From: an uncultured Acidobacteriia bacterium
Lineage (GTDB): Bacteria > Acidobacteriota > Terriglobia > Bryobacterales > Bryobacteraceae
DNA: 33,945 nt
Direction of reading: 5' to 3'
Assembly (NCBI GenBank): GCA_903882645.1
Contig: CAIRXZ010000313.1
Coordinates: 1 to 33,945, forward strand
Shown piece after piece: positions 7,415 to 33,945 of the stretch (the stretch's first letter is position 1; each line of letters opens with the position of its first letter). The position numbers and the translations under genes are program-made. The notes under the pieces were generated by a model. The model searched no databases. It was not told the origin of the DNA and saw only the letters and a list, made by a program, of their open reading frames with translations.

Positions 7415-7526
7415 TCCCGGACGCACCGAAACCCGATGTTGTCGTTCCTGTTGTCAGGTTCGTTCCTGTTTCGGTTGGCGGCGCGCAGGTTGATCGCTTC
7501 ATTGTTGAAGGACGCCCCCCGCACGC
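7415..7526 (-). repeat. DGR template repeat (TR)
   Basis: A 112-base repeat read on the minus strand that matches the variable repeat at 9023-9135. Its central codons are dominated by AAC and other adenine-rich triplets, as expected of a template for adenine mutagenesis. Its reading would encode RGASFNNEAINLRAANRNRN and then EPDNRNDNIGFRCVR, the FGE/C-lectin-like consensus tail. Differences from the VR fall at 19 adenines of the TR; only one other substitution (TTT to TGT near the 3' end) and one inserted base are present. The 3' end is an almost unchanged 23-base stretch ATCGGG(T)TTCGGTGCGTC.., the expected initiation-of-mutagenic-homing zone. The 5' 28 bases overlap the end of the reverse transcriptase frame. 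Confidence 0.95.
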
Positions 7527-8593
7527 GGTGGCCGCGCGCCTCTGCCGAACGCAAAGCGCCCCAGCATCCTCTCGCGCAACAACCAGGTGTTGCCGAATGA
7601 TGCGTGAGCGATCCACGCCCGAACACTCTGTTTCACCTCTTCCCACTCGATAACCCCGGCGGCAAAGTCCCGCTGCAGACGCTTCATCCGGCGCCCGGAC
7701 CGCACCACGTTGCCGCGCACCAACCGCGCCCGGCCGGGAAACAGACGCCAGCCCAGGAACGTCACGCCTTCGGCGCAGCAGTGGATCCGGGACTTGCCCG
7801 GATGCAGCGTCAGCCGCACTTCGCCCAACTGCTGTTCCATCGCCTCGCGCATCGCGCGCAATCGCTGCTTGTCCCCGTCGAACAACACCAAGTCGTCCAC
7901 ATAGCGCGCCCACACGTTCGGCCGCAGCTTCTGGTCGATCAGCCGGTCCAACCCGCTCAGGTAGACGTTCGCGAAAAACTGCGATGTTTGGTTCCCCAGA
8001 GGCAGCCCTCGTCTCCGGGCGAAGGGCGTGAAAAGGTCGTCGCCCGCGAAGTACTGGATCACTTCTTCCTGGGGATTCGAGCCGGCAATGATTCGCGCCG
8101 CCAGCTCCAGAGTCGGCTTGCACTTGATTACCCGCGCCAGTTGCCGGTTCAGAATCTCGTGGTCGATGGATGCGAAATACTTCCGCACGTCGCACTTGAG
8201 CACGTAAGCGAACCTTCGGATCCCCTCGCGCGCCCGCTCCAGGGCCTTGTGCGTGCCCATCCCGGCGCGGCAGGCAAACGAATTGCGCGAGAAGCGGCGC
8301 TCAAAGACCGGTTCCAGCATCCGCGTGAGCGCATGGTGCACCACCCGGTCCCGGAACGGCGCCGCGGAGATCCGCCGGGGCTTCGGATCGAGAATCGTGA
8401 ACGTCCGGTAGCGCCCCGGTTGATAGCTCCCTTCCAGCAATTCGCGCCGCAGTTGCAGCAACTTGGGTTCCAGGTCAATCCGAAACGCAGCCACATCCGG
8501 CCGCTTCCGTTTCCCCGCCGCGGCTGCCTCCGCCGCCGCCAGCAAGTTCGCGAAGCTGGTCAGTTCCGGCCAGAGGCCGCCCACTCGCTTCAT
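7499..8593 (-). CDS. DGR-type reverse transcriptase
   Basis: A 364-residue group-II-intron-like reverse transcriptase of the diversity-generating retroelement clade. It copies TR RNA with adenine errors into cDNA that replaces the VR. Motifs: RPDVAAFRIDLEP at the N-terminus, KCDVRKYFASIDHEIL (first catalytic Asp, about 135), GLPLGNQTSQFFANVYL (196-212, the LGxxxSQ signature of DGR enzymes), ARYVDDLVLF (catalytic YVDD, 231-234) and GVTFLGWRLFPG (thumb). There is no maturase or endonuclease domain. ATG at 8593 forms an ATGA overlap with the avd-like gene, so I prefer it to the in-frame ATG at 8617. The last 9-10 codons (about PRAGGVLQQ) are read from the template repeat itself, so the C-terminus is fused to TR sequence. 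The protein normally ends near the NTWLLRERML helix. Confidence 0.95.
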   Translation of the reverse strand: MKRVGGLWPELTSFANLLAAAEAAAAGKRKRPDVAAFRIDLEPKLLQLRRELLEGSYQPGRYRTFTILDPKPRRISAAPFRDRVVHHALTRMLEPVFERRFSRNSFACRAGMGTHKALERAREGIRRFAYVLKCDVRKYFASIDHEILNRQLARVIKCKPTLELAARIIAGSNPQEEVIQYFAGDDLFTPFARRRGLPLGNQTSQFFANVYLSGLDRLIDQKLRPNVWARYVDDLVLFDGDKQRLRAMREAMEQQLGEVRLTLHPGKSRIHCCAEGVTFLGWRLFPGRARLVRGNVVRSGRRMKRLQRDFAAGVIEWEEVKQSVRAWIAHASFGNTWLLRERMLGRFAFGRGARPPRAGGVLQQ

Positions 8594-8943
8594 GCTCTGG
8601 CCGCCGCTTTGCTCCATCCGCCCACCATCCGCCCGATCTCGTCCAGTTTCTCCGCGCTGAACCCATAGGCTTCGATGGACATCAGTTTCAAGTCCTTTGC
8701 CATACGCAGCAAAAGCCGCGTGGAGTTGACCTTCCGGCTGGCCTGATCGAGCAACCCGGCTTTCTCGCGCGAATAGGCCGCCTCCACCAGCGACGTCAGC
8801 AGATCCAGCCCGTGGGTGGTCAGCCGCTCACCGACAGTGAACCGGTGAGCTTTGGGAAAATTCTCCACCTTTGGCAACAGCCACAGCACGAAATCGTAGG
8901 CCTTTCCTACCACCACCGGTGCGCCTTCATCCAGCTTCTTCAT
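8590..8943 (-). CDS. avd: DGR accessory variability determinant (Avd-like, four-helix protein)
   Basis: A 117-residue, mostly helical basic protein. In DGRs of this kind the small Avd/bAvd protein forms a pentameric four-helix bundle that binds the reverse transcriptase and the TR RNA and is required for mutagenic homing. Features that fit are PVVVGKAYDFVLWLLPKVEN, FPKAHRFTVGERLT, LVEAAYSREKAGLLDQASRK and LRMAKDLKLMSIEAYG, all typical of the Avd/23S-intervening-sequence protein fold. The open frame extends upstream to 9012 but would then read through a hairpin. ATG at 8943 has GGGGAG seven bases upstream and gives the family length. The stop overlaps the reverse transcriptase start as ATGA. 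Confidence 0.88.
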   Translation of the reverse strand: MKKLDEGAPVVVGKAYDFVLWLLPKVENFPKAHRFTVGERLTTHGLDLLTSLVEAAYSREKAGLLDQASRKVNSTRLLLRMAKDLKLMSIEAYGFSAEKLDEIGRMVGGWSKAAARA

Positions 8944-8989: not shown

Positions 8990-9022
8990 AAGGAAAAAAA
9001 AACAAGCATCAAGCGAAGTCAT

Positions 9023-9135
9023 TCCCGGACGCACCGACACCCGATGACGCCGCTCCTGACGTCAGGTCCGACCCTGCCCCGGCTGGCGGCGCGCAGGACG
9101 ATCGCTCCAATGGCCGAAGGACGCCCCCCGCACGC
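9023..9135 (-). repeat. DGR variable repeat VR1 (3' end of the NACHT target gene)
   Basis: A 113-base copy of the template repeat at 7415-7526. Counting on the minus strand, 19 substitutions fall at TR adenines (for example AAC to GGC, GTC or AGC and GAA to GGA). One substitution is outside adenine (TTT to TGT near the 3' end), and there is one extra base next to the second variable codon (C or T; alignment is ambiguous). With the extra base removed the tail reads RGASFGHGAIVLRAASRG, then RVGPDVRSGVIGCRCVRE and a stop at 9019. With the extra base the frame breaks and stops at 9062. Confidence 0.95.
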
Positions 9136-12100
9136 ACTTTGTGTCCTCACCGAAATCGCTCCGCGTCCATTCCCAAACGTTGCCCGCCATATCGGCCACT
9201 CCCTCCGGGGTGTCGCCTTCCGGGAACATGCCCACGGGCGTCGGCTTACCAACCATCATGTTGAAGTTCGCCCGGTACTCGTCGGGATCGGGCCCGCCCC
9301 ACGGGAAAATGCGGCCCTCGGCGCCGCGGGCGGCGGCCTCCCATTGCTCTTCGGTGGGCAGTTGGCACTTTGCCCATGCGCAGTAGCCTTGCGCCTCATG
9401 CCACGTCACCCTCACCACCGGGCGGCCGGGATGCCCGCTTTGCTCTTCCCATTCTGGCGGCGCCTTGGCCCCCGTTTCCTCCAGATACTTGCCGTACTCC
9501 CACACCGTCACGGGAAACCGGCCGATTCGAAATCCTCCAACCGTCACGGACTTCTTCGGCAGGCTCTGATATGCTTTTGAATCCCCGCCAAGGGTAAACC
9601 TGCCCCCGCGAATCTCCTTCCAGTACGCCGCTTCGCGCGGCGTATGCAGCCGCGCCTGGCTCGCTTGGTCCAGCGCCTCCGCGGCCGCCACACGGGTCTT
9701 CAAACCAACGCCCCTGGCCTTGCCTTTCTCGAAGATAGCCTCAACGGCATCCCGCAGCTCGCCGTATTGTTTTGCGGCGGGTTCGCTCAGCTTGTATTCG
9801 AATGGAGCCACGTCCGCCAGCATATTGCCCAGCACGCCCGCCGCGTGCGCCTTGCGGTCGAGGAGCTCTTGGGACACGGCGTGGCGCGTCAGGTCTTCGA
9901 ACAGCAGGGTCAGCCGTTGTTTGGCTTTCTCTGCCATGCAACCGGCCACCAAGGGCAGCACCTCCCGCCCTTCCGCCGAATAGAGCATCTCTCGCGCGCG
10001 CAAAGGGATCTGCGCATCGGGCAGATCCGCCATCGTTCGCGCGGCCAGGTACTCCTGGAAGCTGCGGTGCCAGAACGCGATCTCTCCGCCGCGCAGGGTG
10101 ACAATGCCACTATCGATCTGCGCCTGCTCCAGAAACCGGCGCATCGGCGCCAGCGAGTCCGTCTTCGGCGTCAACAGCGCGGCCGCGTCGTCGACGCCGA
10201 TCGACAGCTTTTGCCCGCCCTTCCACTCCTGCATGCCCAGCGCGAGGAAGCCGAACCGCTCCAGGAGCACATCCTTCTGATACTTGTGTTCCCGATACTT
10301 CTCCACGGCTTGCTCCGCCAGCCAGTCCAGAATCTGTTCGTAGAGCTTCACGCGCTGCTCCGGCAACCGGTTTCGCCGGAAGTGCAGCACCGCCAGCGAC
10401 GTGAGCATCAGCGGGTTGCGCGCCAGATGGCGGATCCCGGGAACCGCCACGGCCGGGCGCAAATCGGCGTAGTAGGCTTGCGCGGCAGTCTCGTCGCCTC
10501 GCTTGAGCCAGCGGCACCACTGCAACAGGAACCCGTCGATTCCGGAGTCGTCCAGCTCGTCGATCATCGTCACGACGAACTCGTTGAGCGTCGCGCGGCC
10601 TTCATGCACGCCTGGGCGCGTAGTGACCACGATGCGGCATCCGAATTGCCCCGCCGCCTCCTGGATGGCCTTCACCGTGTCCACCCGGCGTTCCTGGCCC
10701 GCCGCTTCGTCCAGGCCGTCCAGCAGCAGCACGGTATCCGCCTTGCGGAGCTTGTCCGCGAAAAACGCCTCGTCGAGGTCCCAGCCCTTGTGGGAAGCCA
10801 GAAAGTGCGCGATCCAGCGGGCGTGCACCGCGGTTGCGGGGTCTCCCGGCTCGCGGCGCTCCAGCGTGTTGGCGATGTGCTGGTCGAGTTCGCTGATGCG
10901 CACCCAGATCGGCAATCCCTTCAACCACAGCAGTTCGGCCGGCGCGCCGCCGGGCCGGCACAGCATCCACGCCAACCAGCGGACGAACGTGGTCTTGCCG
11001 CAGCCCGGCTTGCCCTCAATCACCAGCCTCCGGTTGTTTCGCAACGCTTCCTCTAAGTGAATAGGCGTGGGTCTTCCCGGCGCGCTTGCGTCCTTCGCCG
11101 CGCCGGCCGTCGTCAGCTTGATGAACAATGTGTCGATCCCGGGTGGGGGCACCTCCTGGGGGGCGACATGAAGCTGGCCCAACTCAATCGAGCGGGTCTT
11201 GTCTTGCAGCCACGCGATGTACTTCGCCGGGTCCGCCTGCTTGGCATCGAAGTGATTCCGCCCGTGCTTTTCGATGCACAGCGAATACTCCTGCTCGCCC
11301 TTCTCTTCCCACCTTGGCACGCGGGGGTCCAGTTCCCACGGCCGGCGTATGACCGTGCGAGAGCCAGGGTCCATCTTCAGGATCGAGAAGTTATTGCGGT
11401 ATTGGTGATTTGCGTAAGCGGCTCCCCCCACAAACAGACGTGCCCGGTCGTAGCACCGCATCGCCCGTCCGATGGCGCCGTGCGTGTGCCCGGAGAGAAT
11501 GACGTGCGCGCGCGCGGCGAGGTAGCCATAGCTGCCCGGACGGTCGCCGTAGGAAGCGCATTCGGCGTCCGCCAGCCATTCTTGCGGATGGTGCAGCACC
11601 ACCACCGTGATCGGCGCCGTATCGTAGTCGTCCGGATCCATGAGGTGCATCGATTGAAGCTGCGGCAGGCCCAGCCATAACTGGCCGCGGTCGGTTTTGC
11701 TGTCCCGGCAGAACCACGCCGAGTTGGCGCAAAGGAAACGGAGACCGCGCAGCTCGCGGACTCCGGCGAGGTGGTTGGGCTGGCCGTTCAGCACTGGCGC
11801 GGGTATGCCGAAGCCGTCGGCGAAGTTCACAAAGGCTGCGAACGGCGCCGCAAATCCCCCGTCCAGCCGCTCGGGACGGAGGAGCGCGTCCGCCCGCCTC
11901 GCGTCCTGCGTGCGGTCGGTAAGGGAGAAAGCCGCCTCGTGATCGATATCGTGATTGCCCGGACAGATGATGCAATCCGCAGCCGTAAGACCGGTGGCTG
12001 GAAACAACTTTCCCCTGAGCCACTCGGCCAGCTCCGGGTACCCGGACGCCCTGCCCTGCCAGGTCAAATCGCCCGAAATCACCAGGATATGGGGTTTCCA

Positions 12101-12241
12101 ATCCGCCGCAAGTTTGCGGAGCGTCCTCACCAGCAGATCGAGCGACTCGGCGCGTTGGAGCCCGGCTGTGGCGTCTTTGTCGTAGCCGAAATGCAGATCC
12201 GACAGGTGGAGCAGGTTGGGCATGAAGATCGGCGCGTTCAT
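9062..12241 (-). CDS. DGR target: metallophosphoesterase-NACHT-FGE fusion (frameshifted in its variable tail)
   Basis: A 1059-residue protein with three parts. Residues 8-290 are a calcineurin-like metallophosphoesterase with all metal-ligand motifs: SDLHFG (14-19), GDLTW (57-61), GNHD (96-99), LHHP (216-219) and GHTHG (251-255). Residues about 395-740 are a NACHT/STAND NTPase: Walker A GKPGCGKTTF (410-419), Walker B LLLDGLDE (505-512), VTTRPG, ARNPLMLTSLAVLH and FWHRSFQEYLAAR. Residues about 872-1059 are an FGE/SUMF1-type C-lectin-like domain: GGRFTLGG, GRFPVTVWEY, LPTEEQWEAAARG, DMAGNVWEWT, then VRGASF leading into the variable repeat. No signal peptide, so it is probably cytosolic. By family logic the NACHT module couples recognition by the variable tail to the phosphoesterase effector. 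The one-base insertion in the VR removes the conserved IGFR-type core strand; restoring the frame would give about 1073 residues. Start: ATG with GAGGT four bases upstream. Confidence 0.93.
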   Translation of the reverse strand: MNAPIFMPNLLHLSDLHFGYDKDATAGLQRAESLDLLVRTLRKLAADWKPHILVISGDLTWQGRASGYPELAEWLRGKLFPATGLTAADCIICPGNHDIDHEAAFSLTDRTQDARRADALLRPERLDGGFAAPFAAFVNFADGFGIPAPVLNGQPNHLAGVRELRGLRFLCANSAWFCRDSKTDRGQLWLGLPQLQSMHLMDPDDYDTAPITVVVLHHPQEWLADAECASYGDRPGSYGYLAARAHVILSGHTHGAIGRAMRCYDRARLFVGGAAYANHQYRNNFSILKMDPGSRTVIRRPWELDPRVPRWEEKGEQEYSLCIEKHGRNHFDAKQADPAKYIAWLQDKTRSIELGQLHVAPQEVPPPGIDTLFIKLTTAGAAKDASAPGRPTPIHLEEALRNNRRLVIEGKPGCGKTTFVRWLAWMLCRPGGAPAELLWLKGLPIWVRISELDQHIANTLERREPGDPATAVHARWIAHFLASHKGWDLDEAFFADKLRKADTVLLLDGLDEAAGQERRVDTVKAIQEAAGQFGCRIVVTTRPGVHEGRATLNEFVVTMIDELDDSGIDGFLLQWCRWLKRGDETAAQAYYADLRPAVAVPGIRHLARNPLMLTSLAVLHFRRNRLPEQRVKLYEQILDWLAEQAVEKYREHKYQKDVLLERFGFLALGMQEWKGGQKLSIGVDDAAALLTPKTDSLAPMRRFLEQAQIDSGIVTLRGGEIAFWHRSFQEYLAARTMADLPDAQIPLRAREMLYSAEGREVLPLVAGCMAEKAKQRLTLLFEDLTRHAVSQELLDRKAHAAGVLGNMLADVAPFEYKLSEPAAKQYGELRDAVEAIFEKGKARGVGLKTRVAAAEALDQASQARLHTPREAAYWKEIRGGRFTLGGDSKAYQSLPKKSVTVGGFRIGRFPVTVWEYGKYLEETGAKAPPEWEEQSGHPGRPVVRVTWHEAQGYCAWAKCQLPTEEQWEAAARGAEGRIFPWGGPDPDEYRANFNMMVGKPTPVGMFPEGDTPEGVADMAGNVWEWTRSDFGEDTKCVRGASFGHWSDRPARRQPGQGRT

Positions 12242-24816: not shown

Positions 24817-25995
24817 TCACCGAATCGGTTCGGTCCCCTCGCTCAGGATGGCAAGGTAGGCATCGTAGACGAAAAGCCGATGGCGCTGCCGTCCCGTGAT
24901 CTCGCGCAGCATGCCCAACTGCTGCATGTGCTCCAGGGATTTCGCCACCGTCGGCGCGGAGATGCCGATGCTCATGGCCGCGGCTGGGATGGACACGATC
25001 GGGTTGCGCTGCATGTGTTCGAAGACGCGCAGCACGGATGCCGCCGGGCGGCCTAACGCCTCGATCTTGCGGTGGTGGTCCTCGAAAACCGCGAGGATAC
25101 GGCGCGCGGCGGTCGCGGCCTGCTCGGCGGTGTCTCGCACCCCCGTCAGGAAAAAGTCCAGCCAGGTCTCCCAGTCGCCTCTGGCCCGCACCCGGTCCAG
25201 CAAGTCGTAGTACGCGGCCCGGTGTTGTTTGAAGTAGAGGCTGAGATACAGGATAGGTTCCCGAAGCACGCCGGCGGCGCACAGCAGGAATGTGATGAGC
25301 AACCGGCCAAGGCGGCCGTTGCCGTCGAGGAACGGGTGAATCGTCTCGAACTGGACGTGGACCAGAGCGGCCCTGACGATCACCGGGAGATCCGCGCGCC
25401 CGTCGTGCAGGAACAGCTCGAGGGCGTTCATGCAATCGAGGACAAACTCGGGTGGGGGCGGAACGAAGACCGCGGTCCCCGGGCGGGTTCCACCGACCCA
25501 GTTCTGGCTTTCGCGGAACTCGCCCGGCTGTTTGTCGCTGCCCCGGCCCTTCGACAGGAGGACCTCATGAATCTCCCGGATGAGCCGCAAGGAGAGCGGG
25601 AATCCTCCGCGCAGCCGATCGAGGCCATGGTTCAGCGCCGCCACATAATTCGACACTTCCTGGACATCGTTCAGCGGCACGCCCGGCGCCTCGTCGCTCT
25701 CAAACAGAAGCAGGTCGGACAATGAAGACTGAGTGCCTTCGATCTGGGATGAGAGGACTGCCTCCTTGCGAACGTAAGCGTAGATGAACAGCGGCAAGTT
25801 GGGGAGCACGGAAGCCAGGCCATCGAGCCGGCCGAGAGACTGGTTCGCCTGTTCGAGCAGGCGTTGGATGGCCTCCAGGCGCACGGGAGGATCGGGCGGG
25901 AGTGGCGGCGGCACGAACGCTCTGACGGTCTCCTCGCCGTAGGTCTTGACGATGTAGCGGCCCAGTCGCGGGTTCTGGTCCTCAGTAGCCGGCAC
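24817..25995 (-). CDS. Fic-domain adenylyltransferase with N-terminal inhibitory helix
   Basis: A 392-residue Fic protein. The catalytic loop is HPFLDGNGRLGR (220-231), the canonical HPFxxGNGRxxR with the essential His220. The inhibitory motif (S/T)xxxE(G/N) is present upstream of the core as SSQIEGT (82-88), making it a class II, self-inhibited Fic in which Glu86 blocks productive ATP binding. An N-terminal Fic_N-type domain precedes it, and a winged-helix domain (about 320-392, SIGISAPTVAKSLEHMQQLG) follows. Class II Fic proteins AMPylate their own or other proteins; the target is unknown. GTG start at 25995 has AAAGGA about six bases upstream, and that site lies in the arm of a 10-bp hairpin. 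No separate antitoxin gene is expected or seen. Confidence 0.92.
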   Translation of the reverse strand: MPATEDQNPRLGRYIVKTYGEETVRAFVPPPLPPDPPVRLEAIQRLLEQANQSLGRLDGLASVLPNLPLFIYAYVRKEAVLSSQIEGTQSSLSDLLLFESDEAPGVPLNDVQEVSNYVAALNHGLDRLRGGFPLSLRLIREIHEVLLSKGRGSDKQPGEFRESQNWVGGTRPGTAVFVPPPPEFVLDCMNALELFLHDGRADLPVIVRAALVHVQFETIHPFLDGNGRLGRLLITFLLCAAGVLREPILYLSLYFKQHRAAYYDLLDRVRARGDWETWLDFFLTGVRDTAEQAATAARRILAVFEDHHRKIEALGRPAASVLRVFEHMQRNPIVSIPAAAMSIGISAPTVAKSLEHMQQLGMLREITGRQRHRLFVYDAYLAILSEGTEPIR

Positions 25996-25998
25996 AAG

Positions 25999-26031
25999 AT
26001 CCTTTCGTTAGACTTCTCCTTACGAAAGGAT
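25999..26031 (-). promoter_or_regulatory. 10-bp hairpin covering the Fic ribosome binding site, with a short leader frame
   Basis: On the minus strand ATCCTTTCGT and ACGAAAGGAT are perfect complements with a 13-base loop. The second arm contains the AAAGGA ribosome binding site of the Fic gene. An 18-codon frame (ATG at 26036-26038, MAYPFVRRSLTKGSCAGY) runs through the hairpin and stops inside the Fic gene at 25982. A further copy of CTAACGAAA lies upstream near 26043-26051. The same palindrome could instead be a DNA operator for the Fic winged helix. Confidence 0.5.
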
Positions 26032-26230
26032 ATGCCATTTTTGTTTCGTTAGCTAGTCCGCCGCCCAAGGATCGGGTGTACAGTGGGTCCGGACGCCGCC
26101 GTGGCAGCCCGAAAGGCCACTCCACGCCTGCGTGCGCCAGGAACGGCCACAAGTGCGAGGCGCACGGTGACACCCCTGAGCGAACGAACGGTTTCGGCCG
26201 ATCTGTTATCTTGGAGAGTAGTTCTCAGGC

Positions 26231-28786
26231 ATGCCCTTTTACATACAGCCCGTCCGGGAGTTCCTTGTTCGCCCAGCCCTGCCCGAGTCGGTTTCACGGC
26301 TGTCGGAACTGGCGTACAACCTGCTGTGGAGTTGGGAGCCGATCATCCGGGCGCTGTTCCGCCGCATCGACCCGGCCCTGTGGCGGGAGTGCGGCTACAA
26401 CCCGGTTCTCATGCTGGGCCAGGTTTCCCAGGCCACGCTGCAGAAAACCGCCGCCGACCCGCGCTACCTGGCGTTGTACCGGGTGGCTTGCGAGACCTAC
26501 GACGCGCGGGTGCGCAAAGGCCCGCCCCCCCCGGATGGCAAACTGATCGCCTACTTTTCCGCCGAGTACGGCTTGACCGAGTCCCTGCCGATTTACTCCG
26601 GCGGCCTCGGCATCCTCTCAGGCGATCACCTGAAATCCTCGAGCGACCAAGATTATCCGCTCGTCGCGCTGGGCCTGCTCTATCAGCAGGGATACTTCCG
26701 GCAGTCCCTCAACCCCGACGGCTGGCAGCAGGAACGCTACCCGACCAACGACTTTTACACTCTGCCGCTCGCGCTGGTCAAGGACGCCGCGGGCCAGGAC
26801 TTGAAGGTTGCCGTCAAGCTGCCCACCGGCCAGGTTTTCATTCAGGTCTGGAAGCTGGACGTGGGCCGCATCAGCCTGTACCTGCTGGACACGAACACTC
26901 CCGAGAACTTGTTGCCGCAGGACCGGGACATCACCGATTCGCTCTATGGCGGCGATACCGATACGCGCATCCGGCAGGAGATCGTGCTGGGCGTGGGCGG
27001 CATGCGGGCGCTCCAGGCCATGGGGTTGCAGCCCACCGTGTTTCACATGAACGAAGGCCACTCCGCGTTCCTGGTGCTGGAGCAGGTCCGCCTCTTCATG
27101 CGCGACCGGAAGCTCAGTTTCGAGGAGGCCCTGGAAGCCGCGCGCGTGAGCAACGTCTTCACCACCCACACGCCCGTTCCGGCCGGAATCGATATTTTCG
27201 ATCCCGGCCTGATGTACCACTATTTCTCGGACTATTGCGCGGAAATCGGAATCGATTTTCAACAGTTGATGGCGCTGGGGCGCCACAATGTCTACGACCG
27301 CGGCGAGCCGTTCTCGATGGCCGTTCTGGCGCTCAATACCGCGGCCTACCGCAACGCCGTGAGCCGCCTGCACCGCCACGTCTCCCAGGAGATGTTTCAC
27401 GGCCTTTGGCCGCAACTGCCCGTCTGGGAAGTGCCCATCACGTCCATCACCAACGGGGTGCACCTGCCGAGCTGGCTCAACGGCGAACTGGCCGCGCTCT
27501 ACGACCAGTACCTGCAACCGGACTGGCGCGAGCGCTTCAACGATCCCGGCATCTGGGACCAGGTGAAGGACATCCCCGACGAGGAGCTGCTCGAGGTGCA
27601 CCGCCGGCGAAAGCGCCGCCTGGTCTCGTTCGTCCGCGCGCGGCAGAACCAGTCGGCCCTGCGCCGCCAGGCCTCGGCCGCCGACGTGCGCCGCGCCGGC
27701 GAGGTGCTCGACCCCAACGCGTTCACCATCGGGTTCGCGCGCCGCTTCGCCACCTACAAACGCGCCACCCTGCTGTTCCGCGATGCCGAGCGGCTCAAGC
27801 GCATCCTGCTGAACAAGGAAATGCCGGTGCAGATCGTGATCGCCGGCAAGGCCCACCCCAAGGACCAGCCGGGCAAGAGTTATATCCGCGAGGTGGTCCG
27901 GCTCTCGCGCGACCCCGACCTGTGGAAGCACGTCGTCTTCGTCGAGGATTACGACATGAAGGTCGGCCGCGAGTTGGTGCAGGGCGTGGACCTGTGGCTC
28001 AACAATCCGCGCCGCGGCGAAGAGGCCTGCGGCACCAGCGGCATGAAGGCCGCCATCAACGGCGTGCTCAATTTCAGCATCCTGGACGGCTGGTTCGACG
28101 AAGCCTATGAGCGGGCGGGCGGCTGGGCGATCGGCGAGCGGGAGCCTTATTCGGAAGATCAGGACGACTTGCACGCCACCGCCATTTATTACCTGCTGGA
28201 AAACGAGATCGTTCCCACCTTCTACGAGCGCCGCGAGCAGACGCCCCGCGAGTGGATGCGCCGCATGAAGCAGTCGCTCACCTACATCAGCCCCAATTTC
28301 GATTGCCGCCGCATGGTGCGCGAGTACATGACCGAATTGTACGAGCCGGCCCACGCCGTGCGCCTGCGCGCCCTGGAAAGCCGCTATGAGGCCGTGCGCG
28401 AGAAGGCCCGCTGGAACGCCCGGATTCGCGAGGTGTGGGACCGCGTGAAGTTCGTCGAATCGGCCGGCCCGCCGCCCCCCGGCTCGGTGACCAGCGGAAA
28501 GCCGCTCCCCGTGCGCGCCTGCATCGACCTGGCCGGACTCAAGCCCGAAGACGTGCGCGTGGAGCTGGTATTGGGCCGGATCGATAGCGACGGCCATCTC
28601 GAGGAGACCGAAGTGATGGTGCTGCCCCCGATCGAGCAGCAAGGCGCGGCCGCCGTCTTCGGCAAGGACATCCTTCCCGAGCGCACCGGCCGCCTCGGCT
28701 ACGCCCTGCGCGTCAGCCCCAACCACTTTGAAGACCCCCTGACCCGCCCCTGCTGGAGCTTCTTGAAGTGGAGTTCCGTGCGGTAG
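26231..28786 (+). CDS. glgP: alpha-glucan (glycogen/maltodextrin) phosphorylase
   Basis: An 851-residue GT35 phosphorylase that releases glucose 1-phosphate from glycogen or maltodextrins in the cytosol. The N-terminus (LSELAYNLLWSWEPIIRALF) is the DUF3417 segment of the bacterial/archaeal alpha-glucan phosphorylase branch. Then come FSAEYGLTESLPIYSGGLGI, HMNEGHSAFLVLE, TTHTPVPAGIDIF, TNGVHLPSWLNGEL, FARRFATYKRATLLF, and EEACGTSGMKAAINGVLNFS, with the pyridoxal phosphate Lys near residue 606. A C-terminal extension (about 740-851) is immunoglobulin-like and usual in this branch. Start at ATG 26231, preceded by TTGGAGAG at a long distance. It is alone on the plus strand and converges on the pseudokinase gene after 19 bases. 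Product overlaps functionally with the disaccharide phosphorylases at the left end. Confidence 0.92.
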   Translation: MPFYIQPVREFLVRPALPESVSRLSELAYNLLWSWEPIIRALFRRIDPALWRECGYNPVLMLGQVSQATLQKTAADPRYLALYRVACETYDARVRKGPPPPDGKLIAYFSAEYGLTESLPIYSGGLGILSGDHLKSSSDQDYPLVALGLLYQQGYFRQSLNPDGWQQERYPTNDFYTLPLALVKDAAGQDLKVAVKLPTGQVFIQVWKLDVGRISLYLLDTNTPENLLPQDRDITDSLYGGDTDTRIRQEIVLGVGGMRALQAMGLQPTVFHMNEGHSAFLVLEQVRLFMRDRKLSFEEALEAARVSNVFTTHTPVPAGIDIFDPGLMYHYFSDYCAEIGIDFQQLMALGRHNVYDRGEPFSMAVLALNTAAYRNAVSRLHRHVSQEMFHGLWPQLPVWEVPITSITNGVHLPSWLNGELAALYDQYLQPDWRERFNDPGIWDQVKDIPDEELLEVHRRRKRRLVSFVRARQNQSALRRQASAADVRRAGEVLDPNAFTIGFARRFATYKRATLLFRDAERLKRILLNKEMPVQIVIAGKAHPKDQPGKSYIREVVRLSRDPDLWKHVVFVEDYDMKVGRELVQGVDLWLNNPRRGEEACGTSGMKAAINGVLNFSILDGWFDEAYERAGGWAIGEREPYSEDQDDLHATAIYYLLENEIVPTFYERREQTPREWMRRMKQSLTYISPNFDCRRMVREYMTELYEPAHAVRLRALESRYEAVREKARWNARIREVWDRVKFVESAGPPPPGSVTSGKPLPVRACIDLAGLKPEDVRVELVLGRIDSDGHLEETEVMVLPPIEQQGAAAVFGKDILPERTGRLGYALRVSPNHFEDPLTRPCWSFLKWSSVR

Positions 28787-28805
28787 GGCCGGCGCCCCCG
28801 CCGCG

Positions 28806-29864
28806 CTAATTGGGTCCCGGCCCGCGCTCGTCGGGCTGGTCCAGAACCGCGGCTTGCAGCGACTCTAGGGCCTCCACAACCCGCTCCACCAGGTCGTCGG
28901 TCTGCGCCACGGCGGTCCGCGCGGATTGGATGGCGGCTTCGTGCGATTTGATGCTCGTCTCGAAATCGGCGTGGTCCGCGGCCACGTTCTTCTCGAATTC
29001 CGCCGCGTGTTTCTGGGCGGCCGCCAAGCTTTGCTCGGCGAGCGCGATACGCTCGCCGGCGGCTTCCAGCCCGCGCGCGAACCGGGCCGCCACGCGCTCC
29101 TCGATCGCTCCCACGGCTTCGCCGGATAAGCCCCCGTGCTCCATGGCGGCGGCCGCCGCGACGCGCGACTCCAGCGCGGCCAACTGCGCGCGAAGCGCCT
29201 GAACGGCTTCGCGGGCCATCCGCCCCAGTTCCGCCACGGCGGTCTCGTGAGTGTTCAGGCGGGCCGCGATTCGCGCCTCGAGTTGCTGCATCTCCGCCCG
29301 ATCCGCTCCGGGCGCGGCTGCTTCCACGCGGCGGACCGGCACGGGGGTTTCCGCCCGCCGCGCGGCCACCGTGAGCAGCTTCAGTTCGAGCAGCACCTTC
29401 TGCATGCGCGGCCAGCGCGCGGCCGGGTTCTTGGCCACGCAGATCGCTATGAGGCGGTCCAGGGCGGGGTTGCCGATCGGCGCCGGCTCCAGGCCAGAGA
29501 GCGCGGCGGCCAGCGCGGCGCCTTCGCCCGCGAAAGCCCGGCGGCCCGTCAGCAGTTCGTAGAGGACCGCGCCAAACGCGAACACGTCGCTGCGCGCGTC
29601 GGCGGGAAGGCCCTCCAGCGCTTCCGGGGCCGTGTAGGGCGTGATGGCCCCGCCCGCGGCGGGCAGCAGATCGAGTCCCGCGCCCGTCAGCAGAATGCAG
29701 CGCGGCGATACCGCGCCGTGGGCCCGGCCCTCGTCGTGCAATTTGCGGAGCGCTTCGGCGAGCGACATGGCGCAACGCAGCGCTTCGGAAAGCGGGGGCC
29801 TCCCCTCCGCCAGGCGTTGGGCGAGCGTGCGCGATTCACGGGCAGGTGCTGCTTCTAGTGCCAT
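28806..29864 (-). CDS. pseudokinase C-lobe fused to a coiled coil
   Basis: A 352-residue protein. Residues about 25-165 match the C-lobe of Hanks-type kinases (LAEALRKLHDEGRAHGAVSP, APEALEGLPADARSDVFAFG, AVLYELLTGRRAF, ARWPRMQKVLLEL). The N-lobe with its glycine loop and ATP Lys is absent, HRD is replaced by HGA (49-51) and no DFG is present, so it should be catalytically dead. Residues about 190-345 are an Ala/Glu/Arg-rich helical region with heptad-like spacing, probably a long coiled coil. No transmembrane segment is seen. ATG has AGGAG six bases upstream. Together with the active kinase at 32240-33739 it may be a scaffold or regulator, but that is inference; the gap between them contains the repeats and the FGE-like gene. 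Confidence 0.75.
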   Translation of the reverse strand: MALEAAPARESRTLAQRLAEGRPPLSEALRCAMSLAEALRKLHDEGRAHGAVSPRCILLTGAGLDLLPAAGGAITPYTAPEALEGLPADARSDVFAFGAVLYELLTGRRAFAGEGAALAAALSGLEPAPIGNPALDRLIAICVAKNPAARWPRMQKVLLELKLLTVAARRAETPVPVRRVEAAAPGADRAEMQQLEARIAARLNTHETAVAELGRMAREAVQALRAQLAALESRVAAAAAMEHGGLSGEAVGAIEERVAARFARGLEAAGERIALAEQSLAAAQKHAAEFEKNVAADHADFETSIKSHEAAIQSARTAVAQTDDLVERVVEALESLQAAVLDQPDERGPGPN

Positions 29865-30119
29865 TCCGCACTCCTATTGTAATCCACCGGCAATTGACGC
29901 GGAGGGGCGGCAAGCTGTAGGCCGTCGGCTTTTCGCTCGCGCCGCGCGAGCCTGGAGTTTGTGCGTTCCCGATCCGCGTCGGCGCCTCGTCGCGTCGCGC
30001 CGGTCTTGCGCCCGCACGATCCAAGCCCCGTCAGGGGCGCCGGAAAGCCCAGGGCGCAAGCCGTCGGGAACCGGACCCTCCAGTTTCGGGTAGCCCCTTT
30101 CAGGGGCGTAACAGCCTAA

Positions 30120-30275
30120 TCCCCAAACGCTCCTCGCGTCGTATTCCAGGCCGTGTTTCTTCAGCAGGGTGAGAAACTCCTCCTGGAAGGACACTCTGCG
30201 GTGGCGCGCCTCCTGCGAAGCGATGTACTTCCTCACATCGTCCGATTTGGAGCCGCTCACCGTGAATGCGCCGTA
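30120..30275 (-). pseudogene. C-terminal fragment of a REP-associated tyrosine (Y1, IS200-like) transposase
   Basis: On the minus strand the frame reads YGAFTVSGSKSDDVRKYIAS and continues QEARHRRVSFQEEFLTLLKK, HGLEYDARSVWG. This is the conserved C-terminal end of RAYT/IS200-like transposases found throughout Acidobacteriota. The HUH motif and catalytic part that should lie upstream are missing; the sequence directly upstream is instead the palindromic repeat at 30292-30381. It is a decayed fragment. The adjoining palindromes are what these enzymes are associated with, so they may be relics of the same element. Confidence 0.75.
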
Positions 30276-30291
30276 CCGGCTTGGCCCCCGA

Positions 30292-30381
30292 TGTGGGGCG
30301 GGATGGAATCCTGCGCGGCGGTTGCCAACCGCCGCGCGGGCCGATTGACAATCGGCCCGCAGCTTGGCAAGCTGCCCCACA
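30292..30381. repeat. triple REP-like palindrome bounded by TGTGGGGC/GCCCCACA
   Basis: Three perfect palindromes abut: 30313-30337 (12-bp arms, GCGCGGCGGTTG), 30336-30360 (12-bp arms, GCGGGCCGATTG) and 30360-30374 (7-bp arms, CAGCTTG). Each has a TTGnCAA centre. The outer ends (30292-30299, 30374-30381) are inverted repeats of each other. It sits between the transposase fragment and the 3' end of the second FGE-like gene. Confidence 0.9.
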
Positions 30382-30424
30382 ATCGGAACAGTTGTCTCCG
30401 GAAGGAAAAAGAACAAAGGGAAAG

Positions 30425-30536
30425 TCATTCCCCGACGCACCGAAGGCCGATGACCAGATTACGGCTGCCAGGCAGGGCGCCGCCACGGAACGACGCGCGC
30501 ACGCCACTGGCAAGCCCGTTCCACGCGCCGCCGCGC
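30425..30536 (-). repeat. putative second variable repeat (VR2), diverged
   Basis: The last 37 codons of the FGE-like gene align without gaps to the TR-encoded tail (RGGAWNGLASGVRASFRGGA, LPGSRNLVIGLRCVGE). Of the TR's nine Asn codons, two are still Asn here and seven differ. The two Glu codons and the two Asp codons of the TR also differ. Many differences also occur at non-adenine positions, so this is not a recent copy of the TR at 7415-7526. Its 3' end and stop context (AAGTCATTCCC, then GACGCACCGA on the plus strand) match VR1 at 21 of 22 bases. Confidence 0.6.
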
Positions 30537-32074
30537 GTCACTTTGGATTGGCCGCTCCCAGCCCCGGCCGGATCGTTCTCCGCGCCGGGCTGGTAACTCC
30601 CATACCAGTCCGCGACCCATTGCCACAAGTTCCCCAGCATATCGTACAGCCCGAAGGCGTTGGCTGCCTTTTGCCCCACTTCGTGAGTCTGGCCTCCGCT
30701 ATTTCCCAGATACCAGCCAATCTCGCCCAGATCGCCATAGCGGGCGCCCACAGAACCGGCCCGCGCCGCGTACTCCCACTCCGCCTCCGTCGGCAGACGC
30801 CCTCCGATCGCCGCGCAGTACGCCTTCGCTTCGTTCCAACTCACGGTCTCGACGGGAAGATTAGCGCCTTTGAAATGGCTCGGGCTTTGTCCCGTCACGC
30901 GCCGATAGGCCTGCTGGGTTACGGGCGTCTGTCCCAGCCAAAAGCCTCTCGCGATCGTGACTTCGTGCGCCGGCCTCTCATCGCCATTGCACTCCGCATC
31001 CCCGGGCGAACAGCCCATCATGAACCTCCCCGGCGGAATCCAGACGTACGTCAGCCCATCTTTCGGGTTCACCTTCTTTGTGCCCGCCATGGCCTCCAAT
31101 TTCAGCCGCGCCGCTCCAGCGTACTGGCTGGCCGGAGATTCGCCCAGGAACCGCTCGAATACCTGCGGGTCCCGGCTATCCTTGACGGACTCCCACAGAG
31201 TCTGGCCGGCCTTCCGCTTCCGCTCCGCTTCCCGCCCGTCGGCCACGCGCCGCTGCCAACCCCTGATCTCGTCGTTATCCGGGGCAACCCGCAGCAGATC
31301 CCGGATCTTCGCGTCAGCCGCGTCCCATTGCCCGGCGCCCAGGGTCCGCTCCATTTCCACCCGCATACCCACGACCTTCAGGTCCCCGTACCTCTGCCGG
31401 GCCACGGCGGCGAACCGCTCCTCCGGATTCCGGCGAAGGTAGCCTTCGAACACCGCCGGGTCTACTCTATCCTTGATGGACTCCCACACAGCCGCGTCGG
31501 CCTTCTGCTTCCGGTCGGCTTCCCGCCCGTCCGCCACGCGCCGCTCCCAGCCCCTGATCTCGTCGTTTTCCGGGACAACCTGCAGCAAGTCCCGGATCGT
31601 CGCGTCAGCCGCGTCCCATTGCCCGGCGGCCAAGGTCCGCTCCATTTCCACCCGCACACCCGTAACCTTCAGGTCCCGGCGCCTCTGCCGGGCCGCGTCG
31701 GCGAATTGCCCATCCGGATACCGGCGAAGGTAATCCTCGAACACCGTCGTGTCCCGGCTATCCTTGATGGACTTCCAGAAGGCCCGTTCCGCCTGGCGCT
31801 TCCTTGCGGCGGGACCTGTGGCGGCTCGCACCGCGTCGAGGACGGTTTCCGGCATTCCCGCGGCGCGCAGGCGGCCGATGGCTCCCGTGGTGGGCTCGAA
31901 GCCGATGCCGCAACTGGCAACCAGTTGTTCGATCCGCTCCTCGGGCACCGAGCCTTTCACCAGTTGGGTCAGTTGAGCCGCCGACATCGGGCCGCGGCAT
32001 GGCACGGCCTGCTGCGCTTCCATCAGCGCCGGAAGCAACAACAGCATCGTGATGGATGCAAGTTTTGCGCTCAC
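30425..32074 (-). CDS. secreted FGE/SUMF1-fold protein with tandem repeats, putative second DGR target
   Basis: A 549-residue protein. Signal peptide at 1-20 (KLASITMLLLLPALMEA). Residues about 22-95 are a helical domain (LTQLVKGSVPEERIEQLVAS, then GFEPTTGAIGRLRAAGMPE). About 98-330 are 2.4 copies of a 97-residue repeat starting (F/V/L)W(K/E)S(I/V)KD. About 335-549 are an FGE-type domain: WIPPGRFMMGCSPGDAECNG, GQTPVTQQAYRRVTG, LPTEAEWEYAARAG, YDMLGNLWQWVADW and the variable-repeat-like tail VTRGGAWN..IGLRCVGE. FGE catalytic cysteines are not conserved, so a ligand-binding role is likelier than sulfatase maturation. The start is GTG with GGGAG about nine bases upstream. The kinase at 32240-33739 precedes it on the same strand, 165 bases away. 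Export places its variable face outside the cytosol, unlike the NACHT target. Confidence 0.85.
   Translation of the reverse strand: MSAKLASITMLLLLPALMEAQQAVPCRGPMSAAQLTQLVKGSVPEERIEQLVASCGIGFEPTTGAIGRLRAAGMPETVLDAVRAATGPAARKRQAERAFWKSIKDSRDTTVFEDYLRRYPDGQFADAARQRRRDLKVTGVRVEMERTLAAGQWDAADATIRDLLQVVPENDEIRGWERRVADGREADRKQKADAAVWESIKDRVDPAVFEGYLRRNPEERFAAVARQRYGDLKVVGMRVEMERTLGAGQWDAADAKIRDLLRVAPDNDEIRGWQRRVADGREAERKRKAGQTLWESVKDSRDPQVFERFLGESPASQYAGAARLKLEAMAGTKKVNPKDGLTYVWIPPGRFMMGCSPGDAECNGDERPAHEVTIARGFWLGQTPVTQQAYRRVTGQSPSHFKGANLPVETVSWNEAKAYCAAIGGRLPTEAEWEYAARAGSVGARYGDLGEIGWYLGNSGGQTHEVGQKAANAFGLYDMLGNLWQWVADWYGSYQPGAENDPAGAGSGQSKVTRGGAWNGLASGVRASFRGGALPGSRNLVIGLRCVGE
31100..31783 (-). 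repeat. 291-bp tandem repeat inside the FGE-like gene
   Basis: Landmarks such as CCTTGATGGACT recur at 31762, 31471 and (as CCTTGACGGAC) 31180, exactly 291 bases apart, giving two full units and a partial third. Each unit encodes 97 residues (W.SIKD..D..VFE.YLRR.P, then GQWDAADA.IRDLL). The high nucleotide identity of units 1 and 2 suggests recent duplication or gene conversion. Confidence 0.85.
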
Positions 32075-32239
32075 CCCGTGCCGCTCCCGGTGGTCGACGG
32101 TTCCCGCATGGCTTTACCGCGTGCTCGGAGGCTCGCCGCCGGTCCGCATCCGGCATCGTGGACCGCGCCAGTTCAACGCCTTCGGCTTCACTAACGGCCT
32201 CCCCCCCAAATACGCGGTGTTCAGCCGCTTTCGCGCCGG

Positions 32240-33739
32240 CTATTTCCTCCGAACGCTTTTCTTCGTCCCGCCTCGCCCGAATACCAGATCTTCAGTCGCT
32301 TTGGCGTCCGTTGCCCGCTTCAATCCGTCCCGCGCGCGGGCGCTCGCCGGATCGCTTGCCAGCGCTCGCTGGAACAACTCGATGGCTGCCGGATAGTCGC
32401 CCTGCTGTAACAATCGCTCTGCCCTGGACAACTCCGTTCCGTCCGGCTCCTCTTGGCCGGCGGACTCTGCCGGTATACCGCCGCCCGGCACGACGGCGGG
32501 AGCCGGCGGATGCGAAAGCGGCGCCTGCTTACCCGGTTCGACCTGCACAGGCGGGTTGCCGGGAGCCTTCCTGCCAAGGTGGTTCGCCAGAAAGCTATCC
32601 AGCCTAAGCCGCGCCTCCGGACTCTGAAGCGCCAACCACCCGCCCAACATCAGCGCGATTACCGCCAGGCCGGAGGCGGCCAGCGCGAGTCTGCGTGTCG
32701 AGCGGCGGTTTGGCTGCAATCCTGCCGGCGCCGGGACACGGGGCTGCGGCCTAACGACACGGGCCGGCGCCGCCAGCGCTTCCTGCATCAACTCCAGAGC
32801 TTCGGCGGCGGTCCCGATGCGGTCGTCGCGCTCCACCGCCGTCAGCCGCACCAGCAGGTTCTCCAGCCAGCGCTCTCGCGCCAGCGCCGGCCGCAACTTC
32901 TTCAGGCTTTTTCGCTGTTGCTCCTTGCAAGCCAGTGGCCAACTCGCGGCGCTCGCCTCCCACGGCAGCCGCCCAGCCACCAGGCGGTAGAGCGTCATCC
33001 CCAACCCGAATACGTCCACCCGCGCGTCCTGCTCTTGGCTCGGCAGCACATACTGCTCCGGCGCCGCGTACCCCGGCGTCCCCATGTGCGCGGTCGTCGC
33101 CCCTTGCCGCGTCATCTCTTCCACGCGCTGCACCGCCAGCCCGAAGTCGCACAGCTTCAACTGTAATCCGCCGCCTTCCAACTGCCGCATCAGGACGTTC
33201 TGCGGCTTCACATCGCGGTGCAGGATGCCAACCGCGTGGGCCGCCGCCAGCGCCTTGGCCAGGTCGGCCGCGATCGCCACCGCTTCAAGGACCTCCAGCG
33301 GGCCGCCGCCCCGCGCCGTGTCCAGCCAGTGAAGCAGGTTGCCGCCCTCGACGTATTCCAGCAGCAGGACGAGGTACCCCTCGCGCGTCTGCCACGCGTT
33401 GCGAATCTCCACCACCCGGGGCAGCCTGCGCAGCGCGGCCAGGGAGTGGGCTTCGCGGAGGAAGGATTGCTGATACAGCGGGTCTTCGGCCAGCTCCGGG
33501 CGTACGCGTTTGAGAACCAGGTTTTCGCCGAGGAAGGCGTGACGGACGAGGTAGGTTTCGCCCATGCCGCCGGCGCCGAGGCGCTGCAGGATCTCATAGG
33601 CTCCGTCGATGACGACGCCGGGGCGAAGCGCGTCGCGGTTCTGGAAGAGGAACCCATGTACGGGGCAGCGGTCCGCGTCGGGGCCGTAGCTCCTCTCGCA
33701 GATGGGGCAGTAACCGCCGCTGGAATCGCTCATGCCCAT
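32240..33739 (-). CDS. Hanks-type serine/threonine kinase with zinc ribbon, TM segment and TPR tail
   Basis: A 499-residue receptor-like kinase. The N-terminus has a possible zinc-binding CPIC...CPVH cluster (11-28). The kinase domain (about 48-325) is complete: GAGGMG (55-60), VLK Lys77, HRDVKPQN (174-181), DFG (198-200), MGTPGYAAPEQ (219-229). One transmembrane helix follows (about 348-368, LALAASGLAVIALMLGGWLA), then a Pro-rich linker and a TPR-like tail (SRAERLLQQGDYPAAIELFQ). With one TM helix the kinase faces the cytosol and the tail the periplasm. It precedes the secreted FGE-like gene on the same strand. Start at ATG 33739 or the in-frame ATG six bases later; neither has a strong ribosome binding site. 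Confidence 0.92.
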   Translation of the reverse strand: MGMSDSSGGYCPICERSYGPDADRCPVHGFLFQNRDALRPGVVIDGAYEILQRLGAGGMGETYLVRHAFLGENLVLKRVRPELAEDPLYQQSFLREAHSLAALRRLPRVVEIRNAWQTREGYLVLLLEYVEGGNLLHWLDTARGGGPLEVLEAVAIAADLAKALAAAHAVGILHRDVKPQNVLMRQLEGGGLQLKLCDFGLAVQRVEEMTRQGATTAHMGTPGYAAPEQYVLPSQEQDARVDVFGLGMTLYRLVAGRLPWEASAASWPLACKEQQRKSLKKLRPALARERWLENLLVRLTAVERDDRIGTAAEALELMQEALAAPARVVRPQPRVPAPAGLQPNRRSTRRLALAASGLAVIALMLGGWLALQSPEARLRLDSFLANHLGRKAPGNPPVQVEPGKQAPLSHPPAPAVVPGGGIPAESAGQEEPDGTELSRAERLLQQGDYPAAIELFQRALASDPASARARDGLKRATDAKATEDLVFGRGGTKKSVRRK

Positions 33740-33811
33740 GCTCTGCCGTATTCTAACCTACCGCGTCGGACGCGACCGGGAGCGCGGGCGAATTGCGTGT
33801 GCCACACAAAA

Positions 33812-33919
33812 GTGGGGTCAGGCCTTCGGGCCTGCCGCCGGGCTTTGGCCCGGCGTGGCGCGACAACACGAAGAACGCCGGCTCAAAAGCCGGCGGCAGC
33901 CCGAAAGGGCCGGCCCCAC
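33812..33919. repeat. GTGGGGC-bounded palindromic repeat, copy 3
   Basis: A 108-base element bounded by GTGGGG and GCCCCAC with nested arms (CCGCCGGGCTTTGGCCCGGC and CGCCGGCTCAAAAGCCGGCG) and the centre GCGCGACAACACGAAGAACG, closely similar to the copy at 18287-18393. It lies just upstream of the kinase gene, at the right edge of the window. Confidence 0.88.
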
Positions 33920-33945
33920 AAGAGCGTTCGTCCTTGCGCACACAT

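Follow-up and report, generated by a model that had tools for sequence, protein, structure and literature searches.

A remote variable region in a Bryobacterales genome, probably out of contact with the diversity-generating retroelement that wrote it

The stretch of DNA analysed here (the window) is 33,945 nucleotides long and belongs to contig C313 of an uncultured member of Bryobacterales, known from a metagenome-assembled genome (MAG) of 5.27 Mb (366 contigs, 99.3% complete). The two best named matches of the VR2 protein, described below, point to Bryobacterales. The window carries a diversity-generating retroelement (DGR) with a reverse transcriptase (RT), a template repeat (TR313) and a variable region (VR1). 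Remote from these lies a gene whose 3′ end, named VR2, is the subject of this study. Other contigs, loci and genomes are denoted by C, L and G with a number, and TR358, for example, is the template repeat (TR) on contig C358. The following features are considered first.

30425..32074, minus strand: VR2 gene, an open reading frame (ORF) with a GTG start encoding a 549-aa protein, with an apparent N-terminal signal peptide (by eye) and a C-terminal domain of the formylglycine-generating enzyme (FGE)/C-type-lectin type.
30429..30539, minus strand: VR2 variable region, from its gap-free alignment with TR358.
7415..7525, minus strand: window TR (TR313), template of VR1 and not the best partner of VR2, from the TR/VR alignment.
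9023..9134, minus strand: VR1, with 19/30 adenines and 1/80 other sites changed and one +1 insertion relative to the TR.
7499..8617, minus strand: ORF of the window's DGR-type RT, with 62% identity to that of C358.

The VR2 gene and its fit to the template repeats

A profile match to the FGE-sulfatase domain (PF03781) covers residues 343-547 of the VR2 protein, and the nearest solved structure is the DGR protein TvpA (2y3c, E=6.5e-28). Together these two matches indicate, from sequence alone, a C-type-lectin/FGE fold. The Cys pair of the RGGSFxC....C tail is catalytic in formylglycine-generating enzyme and is present in the tails of control FGE genes, for example RGGSFLCNEDYC. The VR2 tail, RGGAWNGLASG, lacks both Cys residues expected of a catalytic FGE.

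As the preliminary description of this DNA had stated, the last ~36 codons of the VR2 gene align without gaps to the window TR, with variation mostly at its Asn, Glu and Asp codons: mismatches fall on 22 of 30 adenines and on 27 of 79 other sites (p=2.5e-4; this and the other site tests on VR2 treat sites as independent). With TR358, 23 of 31 adenines and 14 of 78 other sites are changed (p=5e-8). Moreover, 72 of 109 nucleotides are identical between VR2 and TR358, above the cut-off of at least 50% nucleotide identity for a remote variable protein in PMC7517822, which is defined there against the variable protein of the DGR (this and the other papers are cited from excerpts). A DGR RT and TR are present in the genome and none adjoins VR2; a relic of a TR was not found in 25001-33945. 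Thus, VR2 has the features of a remote DGR-type target, as had been proposed.

Five DGR-type RT loci with FGE-tail TRs were found in the genome, namely C313 (window), C358, C293, C277 and C184, and the C358 RT as a whole-genome query gave five matches at E<=1e-30. Five candidates for a sixth DGR RT were rejected: identity to the window RT is no more than 25-33% for C254, C233 and C56, C57 aligned to it over a single short and weak piece, and C229 did not match it. A TR search over the whole genome, which the preliminary description had suggested, gave TR358 as the best fit to VR2, and BLAST of the genome against itself revealed no closer TR. The adenine bias is significant with TR184 as well (23/30 adenines and 23/79 other sites changed, p=9e-6), because TR313, TR184 and TR358 share an Asn-rich consensus. 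It is the off-adenine fit, not the adenine bias, that separates the candidate TRs. By this measure TR358 has the lowest share of mismatches (13/72) among 29 recovered TRs of 102 nt. At the 12 Asn codons of TR358, 18 of 24 first and second bases and 3 of 12 third bases are changed in VR2 (p=0.006). The window TR was rejected as the writer of VR2, with 27/79 off-adenine mismatches against 14/78 for TR358. Therefore, the earlier view of a DGR-type target stands, its pairing with the window TR as partner does not, and its statements that the present window TR did not write VR2 recently and that another TR or retirement should be considered agree with our result: these are the two live options, and the best-fitting TR lies on another contig.

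We also looked outside this genome. In three other genomes of the genus, TR358 had no match at E<=0.001, and no VR2-like gene was found at E<=1e-50 in G001-G003. No TR recovered from genomes of the family (38 of 237 with a match; three candidates scored per genome, loci from ~29 places) gives a closer fit to VR2 than TR358 does.

The variable region of C358 differs from TR358 at 20/31 adenines and 0/77 other sites, plus a 1-base deletion, and this DGR looks live. VR2 shows 75% DNA identity to the C358 VR region (BLAST of the own genome). The VR2 protein is 68% identical to the C358 target over residues 2-124 (123 aa) and 70% identical over residues 283-538 (276 aa), and the FGE domains encoded on C136, C190 and C93 are 72-74% identical to that of VR2. 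Judged from these identities, the VR2 gene is a paralog of the C358 target; together with C136, C190 and C93 it forms a set of four dispersed relatives. C358 is the closest or nearly the closest relative of every dispersed copy (nucleotide identity 0.83-0.86), and identity between the copies at adenine sites is 0.20-0.47. What ties VR2 to C358 is the off-adenine fit together with the gene body. C136 was placed in the family because of its gene body, since its tail fits TR358 (15/78 off-adenine mismatches) hardly better than TR184 (17/79). An exact 36-base palindrome common to the C358 contig and the window, together with equal G+C (0.657 and 0.655), supports the view that both belong to one genome.

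The age of writing was estimated from the comparison of VR2 with the C358 target. Upstream of the tail, the FGE body shows 83% nucleotide identity, and 55 of 74 fourfold sites agree (~74%). Within the tail, 58 of 71 sites that are not adenine in TR358 are identical (82%), and only 6 of 30 adenine sites are, which is about the level of random letters. Because the adenine sites are random and the other tail sites have drifted like the body (82% versus 83%), there is no sign of recent rewriting. Recently written pairs have off-adenine mismatches of 0/77 (C358), 1/80 (VR1) and 1/79 (C184). In a scan of 30 TRs, a full-length VR accompanied 23 of them within the same stretch, and for 7 none was found in the stretches covered. 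The best VR shows 9 off-adenine mismatches for one of these 23 TRs and 0-4 for the other 22. With 14/78, VR2 exceeds all of these pairs, as well as the second VRs found beside DGRs.

As a control we used 69 FGE sequences (L097-L165, from 80 loci; L086-L096 were left out). In 658 pairs with body identity of 0.70-0.90, the tail identity is 0.78-1.00 (mean 0.94). In contrast, the four dispersed copies have a tail identity of 0.41-0.53 at a body identity of 0.75-0.80. A second set consisted of 34-residue tails that fit the tail pattern, from this and family genomes, those with at least 8 Asn being taken as TR (29) and those with fewer as VR (44); it excludes the C293 TR and VRs, VR1 and the frameshifted C358 VR. 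The mean entropy of the 44 VR-type tails is 1.73 bits at positions that are nearly always adenine in the 29 TRs and 0.68 bits at positions that are almost never adenine, a contrast that is built in, in part, by the split on Asn count. In Asn codons, conservation falls on the third base, a contrast that the split does not affect. Codon-restricted variation, which the preliminary description had proposed to look for among strains, is thus present in homologous tails of this and family genomes. For 23 of the 44 tails, no TR lies within 6% off-adenine mismatch, the TRs compared being part of those genomes' TRs.

Sequences shared at and beyond the 3′ end

Three features lie at or beyond the stop codon of the VR2 gene.

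30422..30443, minus strand: 22-mer in 21/22 agreement with VR1 (9016-9037), by sequence comparison; its 18-mer core is exact at 5 genome places.
30404..30424, minus strand: pyrimidine-rich box CTTTCCCTTTGTTCTTTTTCC directly after the stop codon; 21 bases, 20/21 as in C358.
30305..30375, no strand assigned: three palindromes 3′ of VR2 with stems of 11, 11 and 7, beginning 58, 73 and 96 bases past the VR end.

The 21/22 identity of the two stop regions had been noted before and is correct; so is the observation that the shared end passes the point of TR divergence, for the window TR leaves both 22-mers after CGGGA. The further claim of a descent or recombination specific to VR1 and VR2 is not supported. 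The 18-mer is found in C358, C136 and C93 too, and the FGE domains of VR1 and VR2 are only ~30% identical. In the whole genome, CGGTGCGTCSGGGAATGA is exact at only five places (C93, C136, VR1, VR2 and C358), all of them hypervariable FGE tails, and not at many unrelated FGE genes. The other 15 matches have 3 mismatches each and are near background, because a reversed control gives 8 matches in total. Moreover, GGGAATGACTTTCC stands behind a tail in another genus (L208, G010). Thus, the end match of VR1 and VR2 is a class signature of these targets, and recombination between the two is not needed.

Beyond the stop codon, the identity of VR2 and C358 stops abruptly after ~23 nt. In a genome search, the 29-base GGGAATGAYTTTCCCTTTGTTCTTTTTCC (<=3 mismatches) was found in VR2, C358 and C136 only, and the reversed pattern gave 0 matches. 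C190 and C93 no longer have the box; their identity to VR2 there is 11/30 and 19/30, respectively. The stretch behind many tails is either pyrimidine-rich (class I, for example VR1, VR2, C358, L208 and L180) or T/G-rich (class II, for example C184, L169 and L203), the classes being assigned by eye. GAAT occurs <=8 bases past the aligned end in 29 of 44 tails. A 20-base run of >=85% pyrimidine follows 16/23 tails with a close TR, 6/23 tails without one and 3/146 ends of long frames, genes or not.

Each of the seven local targets (VR1, C358, C184, two of C277 and two of C293) is followed by a hairpin with a loop of 3-4 bases, whose perfect stem measures 7-14 bp and begins 38-70 bases past the VR end; the two 7-bp stems of C277 are weak, being reached by 9/200 shuffles. 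No stem of >=7 bp was found within 150 bases for C136, C190 and C93. Behind VR2, the central palindrome (30336-30360), GCGGGCCGATTGNCAATCGGCCCGC, occurs at 17 genome places with <=2 mismatches, 6 of them exact; thus, a cluster containing a dispersed repeat sits 3′ of VR2. We came to doubt the VR2 palindromes as a DGR hairpin once one of them proved to be dispersed. A 36-mer over another of the palindromes is exact on contig C358 (L030 3301-3336), where it lies in the 5′ end of the called target ORF, probably before the true start.

Two observations were made in other genomes. G163, of another genus, has three VR2-like tails (L195 on C317; L196 and L212 on C218) for which no close TR was found. 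Its one DGR RT at E<=1e-30 has its own VR with a class II end; the orphaning is the same as that of VR2. In G018, the caspase-FGE gene L213 (C117) matches the TR of L199 on another contig (C184) at 78/78 non-adenine sites. It was not accepted as a proven live trans target, as both loci are near contig ends and may be one broken locus.

Origin and present state of VR2

We consider it likely that VR2 belongs to a remote DGR target which is out of contact with its writer, either retired or dormant. By adenine-mutagenic retrohoming, an ancestor of the C358 DGR would have randomised the residues of VR2, either where the gene now lies or before it was copied there. Rewriting would have ended, at the latest, about when the paralogs split. 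From then on, the tail would have been left to drift and to ordinary selection, serving a secreted C-type-lectin/FGE protein as its fixed ligand-binding surface. Because VR2 keeps the class I box after its stop codon, it may be dormant rather than dead. The set of genes offers a worked case of possible DGR target retirement, from C358 (recently written) through VR2 and C136 (box kept) to C93 and C190 (box lost), in which adenine sites are the fossil of past hypermutation and non-adenine sites the clock. It also carries a warning: a TR near a hypervariable tail is not necessarily its writer.

Several points weigh against our explanation. The adenine bias alone names no writer; VR2 gives a significant value with TR184 and TR313 too, and even unlinked pairs such as VR184 and TR358 do so (p=4e-4). 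VR2, C190 and C93 have common off-adenine states that are absent from TR358 and could mark a second, unseen TR, and the genome is a MAG in 366 contigs. Second VRs beside a DGR also mismatch off adenine (6/73 in L248 and 8/83 in L208), so some mismatch is not proof of retirement. The FGE control set consists mostly of closely related Burkholderiales genes. One VR2 palindrome begins 58 bases past the VR end, within the range of 38-70, and could serve as a hairpin. Finally, the box is more conserved than fourfold sites between VR2 and C358 (20/21 versus 55/74, p=0.03), which hints at continuing use. We dropped this as proof of activity: the value comes from one pair and the others are not significant (VR2 and C136, 19/21 versus 54/72, p=0.11), and in G163, where one DGR RT was found, a class I box persists behind a tail that has no close TR.

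A model that overlaps with our explanation assumes that the C358 target was copied out repeatedly during diversification and that the copies were frozen at birth and never rewritten in place. The sole difference is where the scrambling took place. We regard this model as possible, if tentative: C358 is closest or nearly closest to every copy, and the divergence between copies at adenine sites is expected of samples from different times. It leaves unexplained why the box was kept in VR2 and C136 but lost in C190 and C93.

In a rather unlikely extension, the post-stop stretch (class I, TTTCCCTTTGTTCTTTTTCC; T/G-rich class, for example AGTTTAGTGTTTTGAGTTT) would be a class-specific DGR address tag, and VR2 and C136, which keep the box, would be standby targets for a class I DGR in trans. 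If this were true, the genome would hold a reserve of kinase-coupled sensors open to re-randomisation.

It is more doubtful still that VR2 is a live trans target of a TR absent from the assembly, from an unassembled sixth DGR or a strain-variable one. The retained pyrimidine box and the off-adenine states absent from TR358 would fit, and C358 itself lies on a 3.4-kb contig, which shows that DGR loci assemble badly here. However, the genome is 99.3% complete with five DGR RTs only, no TR recovered from the family (38/237 genomes with a match) beats TR358 on VR2, and the hairpin of all seven local targets is replaced by the cluster with the dispersed palindrome.

A swap of 3′ ends between VR1 and VR2 by recombination within the genome would account for their 21/22 match across otherwise unlike FGE domains; it is very improbable, as the identical 18-mer is in C358, C136 and C93, one VR of G010 (another genus) is followed by GGGAATGACTTTCC and its other VR by CGCGAATGACTTTCC, and VR1 beyond ATGACTT is unlike VR2. 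The idea that VR2 is an ordinary FGE gene with a TR-like tail, because TRs resemble the FGE consensus, can practically be dismissed: the conserved RGG.W and GFRC frames are indeed common to FGE tails, and FGE148 of the same genome shows a weak adenine bias against TR358 (p=0.02), but the hyperdivergence of VR2-family tails is unmatched in the 658 control pairs, the contrast of first and second with third bases in Asn codons is left over, and the Cys pair seen in control tails of the RGGSFLC...C type is absent from VR2.

Neighbouring genes and known systems

Two further genes of the window are relevant.

32240..33739, minus strand: Ser/Thr protein kinase gene, 165 bases upstream of the VR2 gene on the same strand.
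9062-12241: Metallophos-NACHT-FGE gene, host of VR1, with its frame broken by the VR1 +1 insertion.

Over 321 aa, the kinase shares 87% identity with the corresponding half of C93, which is a single protein of a kinase and an FGE domain of the VR2 family. Because C93 fuses the same FGE domain to so similar a kinase, the VR2 protein is, by analogy, probably a sensor for the adjacent Ser/Thr kinase pathway. Among nine VR2-like frames of other family genomes, cut to the recovered loci, six have a partner domain: kinase (L214; weak in L224), caspase (L213), trypsin-like (L222 and L228) or TIR (L226). The scan of L216, L219 and L220, cut in the same way, gave no partner domain. VR2-like proteins thus likely act as sensors that bind a ligand and serve a signalling or conflict pathway.

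Because of the +1 insertion relative to the TR, the listed VR1 ORF stops early. Frame-breaking indels relative to the TR were seen in three local VRs, VR1 (+1; window 9023-9134), C358 (-1; L030 ~2136-2245) and one C293 target (about -5 by eye; L032 ~4960-5060), and the indels seen in other full-length TR/VR pairs are of three bases (L032, L204 and L186). RT slippage, assembly of mixed variants and inactive alleles are possible causes. NACHT-FGE proteins occur as the targets on C277 and C184 as well, and their N-termini carry SIR2, NNH2 (just below the cut-off) or DUF4062; together with the VR1 host they resemble published conflict-system targets.

Judged by title and the start of the abstract, no open-access paper was found on DGR targets of Acidobacteria, Bryobacter or Solibacter; in the excerpts of two papers naming both DGRs and the group, the DGRs are those of Gammaproteobacteria (PMC10686091) and of viruses (PMC10504277). 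For a pyrimidine stretch in DGR targets, PMC3240598 was the only DGR paper among the best 10 of 311 open-access matches. The survey in PMC8144416 looked, by its own account in the excerpt, only beside the RT, and would therefore have missed remote targets.

Remote and leftover DGR targets are already known, and VR2 is probably a further one, remote and retired. According to the excerpt of PMC4891356, Treponema denticola has one core DGR with distant targets, some of them "suspicious", truncated or with excessive VR mutations, and its remote target SP32 is a likely leftover of another DGR type. Our genome resembles this case in its remote targets, which are probably leftovers, and TvpA is the best solved relative of VR2. 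In contrast to T. denticola as described there, our genome retains a related DGR, on a separate contig; the target copies are old (~74% fourfold identity), with a kinase fused to one of them and lying next to another. In cyanobacteria, dispersed C-type-lectin paralogs with VR/TR homology are often fused to putative Ser/Thr kinases, and it was suggested that remote targets are activated by cis-acting 3′ features (PMC7517822). The dispersed paralogs and the kinase association are alike here. In contrast, the excerpt describes no common 3′ box, and here a box and hairpin can be traced through their loss. Thiohalocapsa PB-PSB1 has nine DGRs of several classes, STAND/NACHT targets, remote targets and trans activity (PMC10907252); several DGR classes per genome and NACHT and remote targets are found here as well. 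VR2 departs from that system in its 14/78 off-adenine mismatches to the best TR found. In Bordetella BPP-1, the target needs an initiation of mutagenic homing (IMH) element and a GC-rich hairpin downstream of the VR for efficient homing (PMC3240598). In our genome, too, a perfect stem closed by a loop of 3-4 bases lies behind all seven local VRs. However, the inverted repeats of BPP-1 lie <=24 bp from the VR in that account, whereas the stems here begin 38-70 bases past the VR end, with a pyrimidine- or T/G-rich stretch between VR and stem, and VR2 has other palindromes in this place.
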